Assembly: GCA_023384005.1 (NCBI GenBank)
Contig: JAHDXY010000020.1
Coordinates: 1-32,317 of the forward strand
Source: Burkholderiaceae bacterium
GTDB taxonomy: Bacteria; Pseudomonadota; Gammaproteobacteria; Burkholderiales; Burkholderiaceae_E
Length of the DNA stretch: 32,317 bases
Direction of reading: 5' to 3'
Shown here: piece after piece, positions 19,961 to 28,017 of the stretch
How the letters are laid out: every line of letters starts with the position of its first letter
Numbering within the stretch: the first letter of the stretch is position 1
Translations under genes and position numbers: made by a program
The notes under the pieces: generated by a model
Database searches by the model: none
What the model saw: the letters and a program-made list of their open reading frames with translations, nothing else
Told to the model about the DNA's origin: nothing

Positions 19961-20229
19961 AACGGACGATTCGCTGTCCCGGAACTCGGTCCAGGTCCGG
20001 ACTGCGTCGTATCGAACGCAACGACGTCCATCTGGTACCAGGCGCCTCGATCATCGCGTGAGCGCACGCAGGTATCGGGGATCGATTGCAGGAACGTGCC
20101 GGGTGCGTTCCATCGTCTGATCTGGTCAGGGGTCCGGTAGTCGGCAGGCACGCTCGCAACATCACGTCGTACGCCCTGAAACCCGCGCCAACAAAGGGTT
20201 TGCGCAACAATCCAACGAGCGAAACCGCT
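19961..20229. other. Non-coding stretch without a supported gene
   Basis: No frame here has both a plausible start and a protein-like composition independent of its neighbours. On the minus strand a short CWRGFQG-like peptide can be read around 20190. A similar SWRGFRG can be read around 18345, and both contain GAAACCCGCGCCA on the plus strand (20178-20190 and 18343-18355). This may be an eroded gene fragment or chance. Confidence 0.4.
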
Positions 20230-20258
20230 TGATTTCAGCGTCGATTTCTGCGATAATT
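20230..20258 (+). promoter_or_regulatory. Sigma70-type promoter before the structured RNA
   Basis: TTGATT lies at about 20230 and GATAAT at about 20253, with 17 bp between them, a close match to the consensus. Transcription would start near 20263. The only downstream items are the structured RNA, the terminator and then the small ORF and deacetylase gene. Confidence 0.65.
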
Positions 20259-20262
20259 GAGT

Positions 20263-20402
20263 CTGCATCGAGAACGGGTCGTCGCCCGTGCCAACCTGCC
20301 TCTCCCGGGCAAGGTGGTTCGCGAAAGCGGATGCGGCCGGAGCGGTTTTCCGGCAACCAAGCGGGGTGCGACGACCCTCCGAATCCGGAGGGTTTTGTGT
20401 TT
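20263..20402 (+). ncRNA. Candidate structured leader RNA (riboswitch- or attenuator-like) or small RNA
   Basis: About 140 nt from a good promoter to an intrinsic terminator. GGGTCGTCGC (20276-20285) is perfectly complementary to GCGACGACCC (20368-20377), closing a multibranch domain. Inside are three hairpins. One is ACCTGCC/GGCA-GGT with one bulge (20294-20315). Another is TTCGC-GAAA-GCGGA with a GNRA tetraloop (20318-20331). The third is GCCGGA/TCCGGC with a 7-nt loop (20336-20354). The last three bases of the closing stem (20375-20377) are also the first three of the terminator stem, so the two structures compete. I could not match it to a riboswitch, SRP, 6S or tmRNA class that I know. 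A free-standing sRNA is the main alternative. Confidence 0.6.
20375..20402 (+). terminator. Intrinsic terminator overlapping the RNA closing stem
   Basis: CCCTCCG (20375-20381) pairs with CGGAGGG (20386-20392) around an AATC loop and is followed by TTTTGTGTTT. It ends the structured RNA about 127 nt before the small ORF. It can form fully only if the 10-bp closing stem of that RNA opens at 20375-20377. Confidence 0.75.
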
Positions 20403-20528: not shown

Positions 20529-20777
20529 ATGTCACGCAAGCAGCGCAGGGGCGCACGCCCCACCGTCACCGTTTTCCTTTCAGAGCGCCGGGTCCCGGGT
20601 GCTCGCGTGTTCGAGTTCGCGCAGGCCGGTTCGCCGGTGCGCGCGACGCTCACGGCGCGCGCGTTCAGTTGGGATGCCGACGCCCCGGTCCGGGCTGGGC
20701 CCCCGGCCGCGGCCAACGAGCCCGAGTTCGAGCAGTTCCTTCGCGGGCTGCGGACCGTCTATCGCGGTTCGAAGTAG
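20529..20777 (+). CDS. Small hypothetical protein (82 aa)
   Basis: The ATG at 20529 has a good GAGGAG site seven bases upstream. The product is basic at the N-terminus (MSRKQRRGARP), then has a short strand-like TVTVFLSE and an alanine/proline-rich middle. It ends in a charged segment EFEQFLRGLRTVYRGSK that could form a helix. I see no signal peptide, membrane helix or known domain. It lies between the structured leader and the deacetylase-fold gene (64 bp further), so it may be a leader-regulated partner. It may equally be a chance frame, since GC-rich DNA favours open frames. The ribosome-binding site is the best evidence that it is real. Confidence 0.5.
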   Translation: MSRKQRRGARPTVTVFLSERRVPGARVFEFAQAGSPVRATLTARAFSWDADAPVRAGPPAAANEPEFEQFLRGLRTVYRGSK

Positions 20778-20841: not shown

Positions 20842-21798
20842 ATGAACCCGCAGAACCCGTTCGAATCCCACCCCGCGTCGGGCGTGCACCCCGGGCGCTT
20901 CGCGATCCCGGTGTTCTTCCGTCGCGAGTCGGTCGGCCCGCGGCAGCACTTCTCTCCCAGCGCGCACAAGCCGGCGCAGGTGGTCGAGGACTGGGAGCGC
21001 GCGGGGCTCCCGATTCGCATCGTCTCGCACGAACCGGTCGGTCGCGCGAACCTTCATCGCGCGCACGACGCGCGCTTCGTCGACGAGGTGTTCGCCGGCA
21101 CCGAGCCCAACGGCTTCGGCAACTGCGACCGCGCGATCGCGACGTCGGCGCTGTTCACCTGCGGCGCGATGCTCGCCGCGGCCACCGAGGCGATCGCCAA
21201 CCGGCGCGTCGCGGTCGCGCCGGTCTCGGGTTTTCACCATGCGCAGCACGGCTTCGCGCAGGCGTTTTGCACCTTCAACGGGTTGATGGTGGCGGCGGTC
21301 TCGCTGCGGCGAGCCGGACTCGCGCGCAGCGTGGGGATCCTCGATTGCGATCACCACTACGGCGACGGGACCGACGACATCATCCGCGAACTCGGCGCGC
21401 GATGGGTGCGCCACGACTCGGTCGGCAGGCGGTGCTGGCGAGCGGCCCAGGCCGGGCGTTTCCTCGCCGGGCTGGCCGACACCGTGCGCGGCTTCGAAGG
21501 CTGCGACGTGCTGCTCTACCAGGCGGGCGCCGACCCGCACCTGGACGACCCGCTCGGCGGCTGGCTCACGACCGGGCAGCTCGCCGAGCGCGACCGGATC
21601 GTGTTCTCGACCGCGGCGCAGATCGGGCTGCCGGTGGCGTGGAACCTGGCCGGGGGATATCAGCGGGACGCCGACGGCGGCATCGGGCCGGTGCTGGAGA
21701 TCCATCGGAACACGATGAGGGAGTGTGCGGGGGTGTATGCGAATCGCCAGGCTCAGGCATCGCGCGATGATCGGAAACTGCAAAATCGGCCATCGTGA
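20842..21798 (+). CDS. Histone-deacetylase-fold amidohydrolase (arginase/deacetylase superfamily)
   Basis: This is a 318-aa zinc-dependent deacetylase-like enzyme. The active-site histidine pair is in SGFHHAQHGFAQAFC (132-133). Metal ligands are Asp170 and His172 in ILDCDHHYGDGTDD, and Asp231 in YQAGADPHLDD. The C-terminal NLAGGYQRD carries the conserved GGY with the tyrosine that stabilises the transition state. Bacterial members remove acetyl or acyl groups from polyamines, small amides or lysine side chains. The start at 20842 has a strong AAGGAG site. The last 25 residues are polar and may be an add-on. The nearby acyl synthetase (18473-19960) could supply an acyl group this enzyme removes, but they are separated by a terminator. 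Confidence 0.88.
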   Translation: MNPQNPFESHPASGVHPGRFAIPVFFRRESVGPRQHFSPSAHKPAQVVEDWERAGLPIRIVSHEPVGRANLHRAHDARFVDEVFAGTEPNGFGNCDRAIATSALFTCGAMLAAATEAIANRRVAVAPVSGFHHAQHGFAQAFCTFNGLMVAAVSLRRAGLARSVGILDCDHHYGDGTDDIIRELGARWVRHDSVGRRCWRAAQAGRFLAGLADTVRGFEGCDVLLYQAGADPHLDDPLGGWLTTGQLAERDRIVFSTAAQIGLPVAWNLAGGYQRDADGGIGPVLEIHRNTMRECAGVYANRQAQASRDDRKLQNRPS

Positions 21799-21900
21799 TC
21801 GACTCGGGGCTCTCCGTGTGAGCCCGGCATTCCGTACACTGGCAATGTGCGCGAAAACAGCGCTCGGCGACGACAGATCGAGGGTCGGAAGGGGGTCGAA

Positions 21901-22857
21901 ATGGCGAACAGGGAAGCGAAGAAGCACGTCGGCTCCGAACAGCGTCGTCTGTCGGTTTCGTGGCCGCCCTTTGGCGCGAGGCTCGCGACGGTCCTCGGCG
22001 CGCTGGAGGAGGATCAGTTCCTGACTGTCATGGTGAAGCGCTCGAACAGCTTCGTTCAGTTCTTCTGCCAGGGGCAGTCAGGGATGCGGGCCGAGACGAC
22101 GAGCAACGCGTACTTGGCGCGATCCGAGCGACTCGACGCCCGTCAGGTTGCCGCCCTCGCAGCGCTGGGTTGGACCCCTCCGACCGGAGGCGCGGGCGAA
22201 TCCACGCCGGACAACGACCCGGACGGCTCCCCGAACTTCTTCGTCGACTTCGACCACGGCGTAGCGTTCGGCGTCATCGCCGACCTGGCAGTTCGCACTT
22301 TCACGGAGGTATTGCGCGTGCCTTATCCAAGTTTGCTCGAGTACCAGGCAGGGGACATGGACGGGAGCTCGCTGGAGTTGTCCACACTCGAATTGCGACA
22401 GGCGGCACCTCGCGCGGAGGCTGACGACGAGGAGGACCCCGCGCAGCTCCTGTTGAAGATGGTCGAAGACGCCACCGGACTCAAGGACCTGGAGTACGAC
22501 CGGGACGGCGACATCGGCGTGTTCTTCGGCAGCATGGTGGCCTTCGTGCGCCTGACCGGCGACCCGCCGAACGTGCGGATCTTTTCACCTCTCATCGTGG
22601 AGGTCGAGGAGACCGACGAACTCCTCGCGCGAATCAACGAGATCAATCGCGGCACCGGGCACATGCACCTGTTCCTGGATGACGAAACCGTCTATGCCGT
22701 CTCGGAGATCGCCGCCACCCCGCTGGTGCGCGAACACCTCGAGCGCGGGCTGAACAACTTCTGCCAGATCGCCGACGGACTCGACGACCTGCTCGAGGCC
22801 GAGTTCGGCGGCAGGAAGCTGACGCCCGACTCGATGCCGAGTTCGCTCAGGCACTGA
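21901..22857 (+). CDS. Two-domain TY-Chap / YbjN-like peptide-binding chaperone-fold protein
   Basis: The 318-aa protein starts at ATG 21901 behind GGAAGGGGG. An in-frame ATG at 21847 lacks such a site. Domain 1 (about 20-155) has FVQFFCQG, AETTSNAYL and AALAALGWTPPT followed by an NFFVDF segment, the pattern of the TY-Chap N-terminal domain. Domain 2 (about 190-300) has YDRDGDIGVFFGS, a long helix EVEETDELLARINEINRGTG and YAVSEIAATPL, as in YbjN/type-III-chaperone-like folds. Such domains are thought to bind peptides. In comparative genomics they occur in bacterial conflict and signalling loci. I name the domains from memory of sequence patterns, so moderate confidence. A 32-bp gap separates it from the phosphatase gene. 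Confidence 0.7.
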   Translation: MANREAKKHVGSEQRRLSVSWPPFGARLATVLGALEEDQFLTVMVKRSNSFVQFFCQGQSGMRAETTSNAYLARSERLDARQVAALAALGWTPPTGGAGESTPDNDPDGSPNFFVDFDHGVAFGVIADLAVRTFTEVLRVPYPSLLEYQAGDMDGSSLELSTLELRQAAPRAEADDEEDPAQLLLKMVEDATGLKDLEYDRDGDIGVFFGSMVAFVRLTGDPPNVRIFSPLIVEVEETDELLARINEINRGTGHMHLFLDDETVYAVSEIAATPLVREHLERGLNNFCQIADGLDDLLEAEFGGRKLTPDSMPSSLRH

Positions 22858-22889: not shown

Positions 22890-23855
22890 ATGGCTTGCGA
22901 CATCATCGGAGACGTTCACGGGCACGCCGACGAACTGAAGGCGCTGCTCGCCTTGCTCGGCTATCGAAAACGGGGCGGGGCCTGGCGTCATCCTGAACGC
23001 AGCGCGATCTTCGTGGGTGATTTCATCGACCGCGGTCCGCGCCAACTCGAGGCGGTCGACACCGTGCGTCGGATGGTCGACGCGGGGAGCGCGCAGGCGG
23101 TGATGGGCAACCACGAACTGAACGCGATCGCGTGGTGGCTGCCCGACCCCGGCGCGCCGGGTGAATACCTGAGGCCGCACCACTCGCCGAAGTACGGAGA
23201 CAAGAACCGCCAGCAGCACAGCGCGTTCCTCGCGGAAATCACGCGCGCCGAACAGCACGAGGAAATCATCGACTGGTTCCTGACGCTGCCGCTTTGGCTC
23301 GACTTGCCCGCACTGCGCGTGGTGCATGCGTGCTGGCACGAGCGGTTCCTGGCGTATCTCGCGCCGCACCTAAGCGAGCAGCGCCAATTGAACCGTGATC
23401 TGATGGTCGCGGCGAGCCGCGAGCCGGACAACGAAGCGGACAAGGACACCCCGGAGCCGACGATCTTCAAGGCTGTCGAGGCGCTGCTCAAGGGGATCGA
23501 GACGCCGCTTCCGCACCCGCACTGGTTCACCGACAAGGACGGGCACAGGCGCAATCGGGTCAGGGTGCGCTGGTGGGATCGGGAAGCGGAGACCTACCGA
23601 CAAGCGGCGATGCTCTCCGACGCGGAGCGCGAGCAGCTCCCGCTCGATCGCATTCCGGAGCACGTTCGCCTCGGCTTCGACGTAGACAAGCCGCTGTTCA
23701 TCGGGCACTACTGGCTCAGCGGCGCGCCCGATCTGCTCGCCGAAAACGTCGCCTGCGTCGACTACAGCGTGGCAAAGGGTGGCAAGCTGGTCGCCTACCG
23801 CTGGGACGGCGAGCCGACGCTGTCGAACGAGAACTTTCGTTACGTCGGAGGCTGA
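22890..23855 (+). CDS. Calcineurin-type metallophosphatase (PrpE / Ser-Thr phosphatase-like)
   Basis: The 321-aa two-metal phosphatase has all blocks in order: IIGDVHGH (Asp8, His10), FVGDFIDRGP, VMGNHELNA, VVHACWHE and the C-terminal FIGHYWLSG. The GDFIDRG and GNHE motifs match the phosphoprotein phosphatase/diadenosine tetraphosphatase branch. It could act on phosphoproteins, Ap4A or nucleotides. Between the GNHE block and the C-terminus is an insert of about 130 residues that is rich in charged residues and not typical of PrpE. It is followed directly by a dual-specificity phosphatase gene, so one transcript yields two phosphatases of unrelated fold. Confidence 0.9.
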   Translation: MACDIIGDVHGHADELKALLALLGYRKRGGAWRHPERSAIFVGDFIDRGPRQLEAVDTVRRMVDAGSAQAVMGNHELNAIAWWLPDPGAPGEYLRPHHSPKYGDKNRQQHSAFLAEITRAEQHEEIIDWFLTLPLWLDLPALRVVHACWHERFLAYLAPHLSEQRQLNRDLMVAASREPDNEADKDTPEPTIFKAVEALLKGIETPLPHPHWFTDKDGHRRNRVRVRWWDREAETYRQAAMLSDAEREQLPLDRIPEHVRLGFDVDKPLFIGHYWLSGAPDLLAENVACVDYSVAKGGKLVAYRWDGEPTLSNENFRYVGG

Positions 23856-25548: not shown

Positions 25549-28017
25549 TCAGACGCCGTATCGCAGCCGACGGGATCGCCCTGGCAAGTTCGATTGCGAT
25601 TGCGGAGGCGCGGAGGCGCCCGGCGGGCTCCCGGCCGTTTCTCGCACGAAGGCGAGGAGCGAACGAATCGCCAGCGTGAGTTTCGATGGGCGCCCGCGGC
25701 GCCGGCGTCCTTCGCCGCTGCCGTCGTCGTCGCCTCCACGTTGAATACCGGCGGCTGGGTACAGATCGGCGAGCTGTCGGAAAACCTCCGCGGTGGCTCT
25801 TTCCTCGGAAACCCCGCATTCGCTGAAGACCTCCAGCGCGACCCAAAGCGCTTGTGGCATGTCGTCTTCTAGCGCGCGAAGGTCATCGATCGAAGCTGAA
25901 GCAGCACTTCGTCGATTCCTGAGCCAGGCCGCGAGCAGGACCGCGAAGCGCTCGAGATCACGCTCCGGGGCGGCGTGCATCGCGGCGATTCCACCGAGAC
26001 GCTCGACAACGATCCCACGCAGCTCTTCGCCATCGGGGATGGAGTGCGCGGGGCTATCCTGACGCGCAAGAAAAGCCGGTATTTCATCGAAGGAGCAATT
26101 GAGGTCCGGCGTCGTTCTCCTGGTCTTCCACGTCGCGGGCGATTCCAATGCCGAAAACCCGCTGCCGCTAAAGCTGTCGGAGCGCCTGACGCGCTTCGTC
26201 GCTGGCCTTGTGGACAATTGGACGCTGCCGGCTCCACCCCAGCCCGCGGCGAGCATCTGCGGAAGCTTGATCGTCTTCAGGTCGCCCGCGGAGCGCTGCG
26301 CGTCGGCGCGCTCGAGCACGAGAACCATCGACGTCGCATCTGTGACGATCTGGTGGCGCTCGGCATAGCGCGCGCGCGCGCCGCTGATCAGCGTGTCGCA
26401 ACGTCGTGCGGCTGCAATCCGCGCAATTGCATCATTCTCGGAAATTGCAGTCGGAATCCCGACAGCGAGCGTGCGCGGCGCCGAATCGTTCCAGGCCAGT
26501 TCGACCGACCCGACGGGAAGCGCGTCGAATCCGGCGATCAGGTAAACGGTGTCGCCCCCAAAGATCGCGTCGGGCAGGGCCAGCGTCCAGACCGGTTTGG
26601 TGGGCCAGTGCACCTGGATGTCGCGCGCACGTGTCTGGCGAAGGCGCGCACCGAGCGCGGCGATCGCACGGACCAGGTCCTCGCCCGCCGTGACGAACTC
26701 GATCGCGCCGCCAGTCTCGCGCGCCAGCCGCGTGAGGAAACCCTCCGCGGGTGCGGCGCCCACTGCGATCACGAACACGCGCTGCTCCGACGCGCGTGCG
26801 TTCGCGAGCAGCGCGTCGTCGTCCCAGATCTCGCCGTCGGTAATCAACAGTACGTCGGCGTCCGCCGCACCTGATCCGCCTCTGGCGAAGACGGCTGCAA
26901 GTGCGGGCCCCATGACGGTGCCGCCCATGTCGGCATTCATGGTCATCAGCCACTGCATCGCGTCAGCAAACACGTCCTCGGTCCATGCGTCGAAATCAGC
27001 GGGGCCGGCCTCGAACCCGGAACCGAAGCGGGCAAGCGAGATGGTGTCGCACACGTCGCAACCCATCAGCAACTGCATCAGGGCGCGTTTGGCTGCGTCG
27101 ATGCTGTCTCCGGCCATGCTGCCCGAGCAGTCGACCAGGATTTTCAGCCTCAGGCTTGCGGCAGGGCCATCGACGCGCGGGGGAGTGAACCCGGCGACGA
27201 GTACGTGCTCCGACTCGGGGGGAGTCGTTCGTGCCGAATTGCGCTCGCGCAGCGGCGCAGAAGCGGGTTCCTGCGCGGGGGCCAGGTCGTTGCGGGCGAC
27301 GACGCACATCTGCTCGGCGAGAACGTCGTCGAAGGTCACGACAAAGTCGCGATCCATCGCGCCCGAAAGCGTGACCACGAGCGCGTCGGCGTCGCGCGAG
27401 AATTCCGCGTCGTGGCTCGGGCACGACACCGTCGCTTTTGCGAGTGCGCCCTCCGCCCGAATCCGTACCGTTGCACGGTACTCGGCATCGAGGCTGGACT
27501 CGGGAACTGCGTGCGCCGGCAATCCCGCTGCCAGCGGGTCGCCATAACGCGGCGCGATCACCGTCGGTATCGTCAGCCGGACGCGACCGCCGTCGAAGGC
27601 GAGCAGCTGCGCGTAGCGCACCTCGACGATCGCGGTCTCACCCGCTTTCAGGTTGCCCAGGCTCACCGTGTACATGCCGTTGGCGGTTCGCTCGAGCAGC
27701 ACTGCGCTGTCACCCTTCTCGACAGCGTCCTCGTAGCGCTGCTCGGCATCGCCGCGCGCGACCACCACCCCGTGCAACTGCTGGCCGGCGAGCTCTACGC
27801 GCAACCCGAGCAGCACCGCGGCCGACGGAAGCGGAAAGGTGTAGATCGCCTCGATGTCGCTCTCGGCGGCATTGCGCCAGTGCTGGCGAAACGTGACCGC
27901 GTGCGACAGGCCGCGCGCGCAGGCGTCGACGTCAACGCGCACTAGCGGCAGCGTGGTGCCGTCCGCACTGCGCATGACGGAGGATTCGGAGGACAGGAAC
28001 GAAGGAAACCGGATCAT
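25549..28017 (-). CDS. VIT domain and von Willebrand factor A domain protein
   Basis: The product is 822 aa with no signal peptide or membrane helix, so it is presumably cytoplasmic. Residues about 15-160 form a VIT domain (inter-alpha-trypsin type), with YTFPLPSAAVLLGLRVEL, EQRYEDAVEKGDSAVLLE and GMYTVSLGNLKAGETAIVEV. A vWA domain follows, with the metal-ion site DCSGSM (296-301), and TDGEIWDDD further on. Residues about 480-700 are an additional uncharacterised region. The C-terminal part has an acidic-then-basic linker GGDDDGSGEGRRRRGRPSK and ends SRRLRYGV. VIT-vWA proteins act as metal-dependent protein-binding scaffolds. The gene follows a MerR regulator (63-bp gap). This MerR-VIT/vWA order seems familiar to me from other proteobacteria. 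Confidence 0.88.
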   Translation of the reverse strand: MIRFPSFLSSESSVMRSADGTTLPLVRVDVDACARGLSHAVTFRQHWRNAAESDIEAIYTFPLPSAAVLLGLRVELAGQQLHGVVVARGDAEQRYEDAVEKGDSAVLLERTANGMYTVSLGNLKAGETAIVEVRYAQLLAFDGGRVRLTIPTVIAPRYGDPLAAGLPAHAVPESSLDAEYRATVRIRAEGALAKATVSCPSHDAEFSRDADALVVTLSGAMDRDFVVTFDDVLAEQMCVVARNDLAPAQEPASAPLRERNSARTTPPESEHVLVAGFTPPRVDGPAASLRLKILVDCSGSMAGDSIDAAKRALMQLLMGCDVCDTISLARFGSGFEAGPADFDAWTEDVFADAMQWLMTMNADMGGTVMGPALAAVFARGGSGAADADVLLITDGEIWDDDALLANARASEQRVFVIAVGAAPAEGFLTRLARETGGAIEFVTAGEDLVRAIAALGARLRQTRARDIQVHWPTKPVWTLALPDAIFGGDTVYLIAGFDALPVGSVELAWNDSAPRTLAVGIPTAISENDAIARIAAARRCDTLISGARARYAERHQIVTDATSMVLVLERADAQRSAGDLKTIKLPQMLAAGWGGAGSVQLSTRPATKRVRRSDSFSGSGFSALESPATWKTRRTTPDLNCSFDEIPAFLARQDSPAHSIPDGEELRGIVVERLGGIAAMHAAPERDLERFAVLLAAWLRNRRSAASASIDDLRALEDDMPQALWVALEVFSECGVSEERATAEVFRQLADLYPAAGIQRGGDDDGSGEGRRRRGRPSKLTLAIRSLLAFVRETAGSPPGASAPPQSQSNLPGRSRRLRYGV

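Follow-up and report, generated by a model that had tools for sequence, protein, structure and literature searches.

This study concerns a regulatory RNA encoded at positions 20,230 to 20,402 of a 32,317-nucleotide (nt) stretch of DNA from a Burkholderiaceae bacterium (contig JAHDXY010000020.1 of assembly GCA_023384005.1), called the window below. Our analysis identifies this RNA, with high confidence, as an S-adenosylmethionine (SAM) riboswitch of the SAM-I/IV class that works by transcription attenuation. When the whole window was compared with all Rfam families, one match above the cut-off was detected, namely RF01725 (SAM-I/IV riboswitch aptamer). The match covers positions 20260-20370 on the + strand and model positions 1-99 of 99, with 55.1 bits (E 1.3e-6 for the whole window); the gathering cut-off of the family is 41.1 bits. 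RF01725 was also the top-scoring member of its clan for this segment, and a genome-wide search found one copy in the genome, the window's own. An earlier prediction from the sequence alone had described a candidate new riboswitch or attenuator that could not be assigned to a known class. A new class is ruled out by the RF01725 match. By its own terms, that prediction would have been refuted if the RNA matched some unrelated family already known; the family found is a known riboswitch family, so that "new" falls and "riboswitch" is retained. Thus, the riboswitch class is already known, and what is new is the gene context of this copy, a small open reading frame (ORF) followed by a gene for a protein with a histone deacetylase (HDAC) fold. 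All features described below lie on the + strand unless stated otherwise.

Copies of RF01725 came from several overlapping sets of genomes. Matches were found in 9 of 101 genomes of the nearest relatives, in 12 of 74 of the same family, in 28 of 399 of the same order, in 5 of 47 genomes holding HDAC loci and in 20 of 399 genomes in the family around Rhodoferax lacus. Overall, 68 copies were used. Locus L184 (38.3 bits, below the cut-off) and loci L113 and L182 (duplicates of L174) were left out, L170 and L204 were kept though below the cut-off, and the aptamers of L162 and L163 are identical. An alignment (A1) was made from 36 of the 68 copies, which were picked by eye for the same kind of arrangement of helix P2 and terminator.

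The aptamer at 20260-20370 possesses structural features of RF01725: besides the score above the cut-off, an uninterrupted P2, a conserved P3 core, P5 downstream of P1 and a pseudoknot were found. P1 (20265-20269 with 20330-20334), placed by the Rfam alignment, is paired in 93.9% of the cells, with two pairs changed on both sides. The P2 hairpin (20274-20279 with 20284-20289), which has no internal loop, is paired in 96.7% with four doubly changed pairs, and the P5 hairpin (20336-20354), located 3′ of P1, in 98.6% with three. The pseudoknot joins the P3 loop (20304-20307, CCCG) to 20362-20365 (CGGG) and is paired in 97.9%, with two pairs changed on both sides. Such a pairing of the P3 loop with the 3′ side is a feature of the class, as in SAM-IV. 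The P3 hairpin (20290-20318), with the conserved core CCAACCUG / CAAGGUGG, is nearly invariant, so its covariation could not be counted; the core columns CCAACCTGC and CAAGGTGG are invariant in 36 of 36 aligned rows. A small P4-like hairpin, CGC-GAAA-GCG, at 20320-20329 is paired in 68% of the cells and is not kept in all relatives. P3, this GAAA hairpin and P5 are the three hairpins, one of them GAAA-looped, of the original prediction, and they are compatible with both alternative folds described below. The covariation that it proposed to look for in them is present in P5. P1 and P2 had been missed. Across aptamer, pseudoknot and terminator, 91.8% of the cells are paired and 17 of 39 pairs are changed on both sides (36 rows). 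None of 500 shuffles reached any of five measures, and pairing fell to 34-48% when the partner strands were slid.

A promoter is located directly upstream (20229-20257, beginning one base before the position given in the original prediction), with a -35 element TTGATT at 20229-20234, a 17-base-pair (bp) spacer and a -10 element GATAAT at 20252-20257. It was the sole one in 951 bases scanned, where 0.1 was expected. The predicted transcript start, at about 20264, adjoins the first base of P1; the promoter elements are as they had been described. An earlier count of -10 elements without a control (38 of 43 copies) was redone with shuffles on 67 copies. The best-scoring -10 element ends 6-9 nt 5′ of P1 in 57 of the 67, and the mean for 200 shuffled sets was 8.9 with a maximum of 17. 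Thus, the transcript usually begins at the aptamer.

The aptamer is followed by an intrinsic terminator at 20373-20402 (stem 20373-20394, then a T-rich tail), which is supported by the terminator scan and by covariation. In addition, the perfect 10-bp stem of the original prediction (20276-20285 with 20368-20377) was confirmed, and it excludes both P2 and the terminator. The 3′ end of this stem, 20373-20377, also supplies the first five bases of the terminator stem; the prediction had recognised that bases are shared and that the two folds exclude each other, and had placed the overlap at 20375-20377. Since it is built from the 5′ strand and loop of P2 and from the terminator's 5′ arm, the stem is an antiterminator and does not close the sensor. 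A terminator and a mutually exclusive antiterminator, which characterise a transcription-attenuating riboswitch, are both present. The prediction of a switch that acts in cis, carries a promoter on its 5′ side and alternates between two incompatible folds, of which one is a terminator, was therefore borne out. The promoter, the 10-bp stem, the three hairpins and the terminator all lie within one or two bases of their predicted positions.

The antiterminator is paired in 94.3% of the cells, and four of its ten pairs are changed on both sides (36 rows), which are the compensatory changes that the prediction had proposed as a check. No shuffle among 500 reached this percentage of pairing or the covariation score, four reached the number of doubly changed pairs, and pairing was 26-58% when the partner was slid. 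One compensatory pair, 20282/20371, is UA in the window alone and AU in 32 rows. When the P2 strand of the window was combined with the 3′ segments of the 35 other rows, its best pairing was with its own segment, and the same held in the reverse direction. The length of the stem was rejected as a measure of significance, since 36 perfect 10-bp inverted pairs within 140 nt were listed in this GC-rich window, several being overlapping registers of one repeat. The fold of the RNA is only moderately more stable than those of shuffles (z -2.0; 5 of 200 shuffles fold as well). Thus, the RNA stands above chance by the Rfam match and the covariation in relatives, and not by stem length or fold stability. 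A terminator-like hairpin was detected 3′ of 51 of the 68 copies, in 33 of the 36 selected for A1 and in 18 of the 32 others.

Folding of the nascent transcript from 20264 was calculated by a model without ligand and without the pseudoknot. P1 and P2 had a probability of 1.0 in transcripts ending at 20340 and 20356, and the antiterminator had a probability of 1.0 at ends 20377 and 20383. The full RNA to 20402 was balanced (antiterminator 0.53, terminator 0.46). With other pairs allowed, two isoenergetic states were obtained at full length, the free and the forced antiterminator folds both having -64.5 kcal/mol.

Based on these folds, the most likely mode of action is that an aptamer stabilised by SAM leaves the terminator arm free, and that the downstream genes are thereby turned off. 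The class match, the two folds with their mutual exclusion and their covariation are computed results, and SAM as the ligand, the direction of control, the extent of the operon and the function of the target genes are inferences. RNA polymerase would start at about 20264, and the aptamer (P1, P2, P3, P5 and the P3-loop pseudoknot) would fold first. Bound SAM would hold P2 shut for the time that the terminator needs to prevail: 20368-20377 would remain uncaptured, and the terminator stem at 20373-20394 would form. When SAM is absent, 20368-20377 would invade P2 by forming 10 bp with 20276-20285. The aptamer would then be destroyed and the 5′ arm of the terminator occupied, and transcription would extend into the small ORF and the HDAC-fold gene, and possibly into the two genes after them.

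Several results weigh against this interpretation. In the folding calculations, P1 drops to 0.31 at transcript end 20370. The antiterminator does not win throughout in the model, the terminator being ahead (0.85 vs 0.15) at end 20394. When only the listed pairs are counted, stability favours the aptamer with the terminator (-53.9, against -44.1 for the antiterminator fold), and the tie at -64.5 kcal/mol is reached only if other pairs may form. The further pair types of the antiterminator are unexceptional (reached by 47 of 500 shuffles), and the selection of rows for A1 favours the antiterminator. No terminator-like hairpin was detected after 17 of the 68 copies (for example L095, L096, L154, L159 and L173) by a scan that also misses the weak-tailed terminators of L092 and L093. 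Finally, a search of the window detected neither metK nor another gene of the panel; for metK, MoxR, VWA and DUF3293, tblastn gave nothing better than E 0.018.

The first gene after the switch is the small ORF of 82 amino acids (aa) at 20529-20777, which starts with ATG preceded by AGGAG, 134 nt from the terminator. No family match was obtained for it in domain searches including NCBIfam. A homologue (45% identity, E 1.6e-11) follows the riboswitch at L091, in the same genus, and the ORF also matches the queries of a small-protein family, type B (see below), weakly. The second gene, at 20842-21798, encodes the HDAC-fold deacylase of 318 aa (Hist_deacetyl, PF00850), whose best solved relatives carry the depositor names histone deacetylase or histone deacetylase domain-containing protein. 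The RNA thus lies upstream of the small ORF and the deacetylase-fold gene, as had been predicted. By spacing only, the two following genes possibly belong to the same transcription unit. These encode a protein with TY-Chap1/TY-Chap3 domains (21847-22857) and a protein with a calcineurin-like phosphoesterase domain (22890-23855). A TY-Chap-like protein near an HDAC gene is found in the window (21847-22857), at L047 and at L210. An 822-aa protein with VIT and VWA domains is encoded on the - strand at 25549-28017. NCBIfam gave no match for either of the two HDAC proteins, for the TY-Chap protein or for the DUF3293 protein, and PADLOC gave no match to defence genes among the eight proteins submitted.

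Within 6 kilobases (kb) downstream of the 68 copies, we found DUF3293 (18 copies), metK matches (14), MoxR-like ATPase (14), VWA-type proteins (10), small proteins of type B (15) and type A (7), and HDAC (2). These counts are lower bounds, because less than 6 kb is available downstream of 41 copies and less than 1.4 kb downstream of 8. The metK matches include one remnant (L091) and one cut by a contig end (L151). Pfam confirmed DUF3293 in three proteins and detected AAA, DUF2201_N metallopeptidase and S-AdoMet synthetase domains at L093. The association of metK with the same RNA in relatives is evidence for SAM as the ligand. In the window, the ligand cannot be read from the neighbouring genes, since metK and the panel genes are missing there and the first gene is without known function. 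Only the target genes of the window are unusual; related bacteria often have SAM-making genes in this place.

At L092, L093, L095, L165, L167 and L173, a conserved operon of a MoxR-like ATPase, a DUF2201/VWA-type protein and a divergent MetK follows the riboswitch. Proteins of 58-112 aa, which fall into at least two families (type A, marked by an EWRDP motif, and type B), also follow it (L092, L193, L195, L201 and L205; L099, L153, L181 and L191); no Pfam match was obtained among the members scanned. At L180, L185, L186, L189, L190 and L097, the TTG or GTG start of DUF3293, as placed, lies in or adjoins the T-tract of the terminator; therefore, the attenuator would overlap the gene start. The first genes at L154, L156, L157, L160, L168 and L170 are presumably, judging from their translations, sulfhydrylase-like, PQQ-dehydrogenase-like and AbrB-like plus FAD-oxidase-like. 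On contig C8 of the window's own genome (L119, 4708-6135 and 6529-6844), CRISPR-like repeats at the contig end adjoin a divergent MetK and the terminal part of a VWA-like gene. The repeats match CRISPR-DR32 below the cut-off, and the arrangement may be an assembly join.

We also compared the HDAC gene across genomes. In R. lacus (L181), the order is the same as in the window, riboswitch, 100-aa ORF and HDAC, and the last part of the small ORF contains the HDAC start codon. The riboswitch and the HDAC gene of Lautropia are divergently oriented, and the Paucibacter riboswitch is found directly 3′ of the HDAC gene. Among 80 HDAC loci with flanks of about 3 kb, the riboswitch was detected at two (L047, divergent; L087, HDAC upstream of the RNA), whereas its density in 47 of these genomes would predict 0.018. 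The flanks of the other 78 have no such RNA. HDAC as the usual target of the RNA is unsupported (2 of 68 copies, 2 of 80 HDAC loci). A relative of metK, MoxR, DUF3293 or the small proteins was found at 8 of the 80 HDAC loci (503 kb) and in none of 40 control stretches (560 kb); the controls, taken from contig C3 in 40 of those 47 genomes, are not random, and events within one locus are not independent. These findings suggest, and do not prove, that the HDAC gene shares a functional neighbourhood with the riboswitch-linked genes; the 78 loci without the RNA, and the five of eight HDAC-bearing family genomes without any RF01725 match, speak against it. Tentatively, the SAM-I/IV riboswitches of Burkholderiales might form an unrecognised SAM-responsive set of variable gene clusters, containing accessory MetK with MoxR and VWA-metallopeptidase proteins, DUF3293 and the 58-112 aa protein families, with the HDAC-fold deacylase of the window as a member. 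We regard this as possible and rather doubtful. If it is true, SAM supply would control a protein or metabolite deacylation step.

The main alternative, a serious one that we nevertheless think less likely than not, is that the switch has lost its former target. The HDAC-fold gene would then be merely a neighbour of a former metK locus, of which the riboswitch and the small ORF are left. The order at L091 fits this explanation: the riboswitch, the homologous small ORF and a 282-aa ORF are followed by a metK matching only the first 48 residues. This remnant (genome G007, contig C7, 5422-5556) is 83% identical to the metK of L097, and the riboswitch upstream of it is intact. Furthermore, metK is absent from the window, the two MetK genes of the genome are on contigs C262 and C8, and the only RF01725 match in the genome is the window's. 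HDAC relatives occur in 8 of 74 family genomes, of which five lack any RF01725 match; both are present in G000, G036 and G105, on separate contigs in G036. The HDAC of R. lacus is only 40% identical to that of the window, below the 47-56% of 80 other relatives. However, all parts of the switch (promoter, aptamer, antiterminator, terminator) are intact, with a compensatory change of the window in the antiterminator, as expected under selection, and R. lacus keeps the order of riboswitch, small ORF and HDAC. Moreover, the RNA adjoins HDAC in Lautropia and Paucibacter in other orientations.

It is quite unlikely that the SAM-I/IV fold binds another ligand, such as S-adenosylhomocysteine or a related compound. 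J1/2 is GAGAA here and AAGAG in the Rfam consensus, the downstream genes are unusual, and the identity of the ligand is inferred. However, the P3 core is invariant in the 36 aligned copies, and the J1/2 positions also vary in copies preceding metK, for example at L097 and L175. Slightly less probable still is the alternative offered by the original prediction, a small RNA that stands on its own and ends at the terminator. Such an RNA would agree with the promoter and terminator of its own and with the 134 nt before the first ORF. It is disfavoured because related metabolic genes are repeatedly preceded by the same unit of promoter and aptamer, to which a terminator-like hairpin is added in most cases (51 of 68 copies); in addition, the match is to a cis-regulatory family, and a covarying antiterminator would be useless to a constitutive small RNA. 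A new ligand-binding domain with the 10-bp stem as its closing helix, as first proposed, is very improbable: the stem is perfect and encloses three hairpins, but the same hairpins are those of RF01725, whose P2 excludes the stem.

As for the attenuating SAM-I/IV riboswitch itself, it is a textbook RNA, a known class with a readable, covarying antiterminator, and the interest lies in its use, that is, in the target genes. According to part of one report, the beta-proteobacterial metK has no known methionine regulator (PMC4239095). The copies preceding metK in Burkholderiales are candidates for part of this missing regulation. In a search of literature available without subscription, which did not extend to the species list of Rfam, we found no paper linking the SAM-I/IV class to metK in beta-proteobacteria, none joining MoxR, a riboswitch and methionine adenosyltransferase, and none for DUF3293. 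A paper on vWA-MoxR conflict systems (PMC7159879) does not mention MetK or a riboswitch in its main text, as judged by a term search. The RNA before small proteins, DUF3293, MoxR-VWA-MetK operons and the HDAC-fold gene provides a testable input signal for these unknown genes.

The antiterminator described here consists of the 5′ strand and loop of P2. In this respect it is unlike that of the classic SAM-I riboswitch (which we take to be RF00162 in Rfam), whose antiterminator uses the 3′ strand of P1. In the sections of PMC2864571 available to us (Weinberg et al. 2010), SAM-I and SAM-IV (RF00634) are placed in the same superfamily as SAM-I/IV, and a P2 without an internal loop is found in SAM-I/IV among these classes. 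According to part of PMC7736828, SAM-IV keeps five of the six contacts of SAM-I, and the ligand-binding core is shared. The window's RNA agrees with the SAM-I/IV riboswitch, as far as it is described in those sections of PMC2864571, in the full-length match, the P2 without an internal loop, the P3 core and the P5 located 3′ of P1. It differs from the RF01725 riboswitches described there in its occurrence in a Burkholderiales family, in the antiterminator derived from P2, and in the small ORF and HDAC-fold gene downstream.
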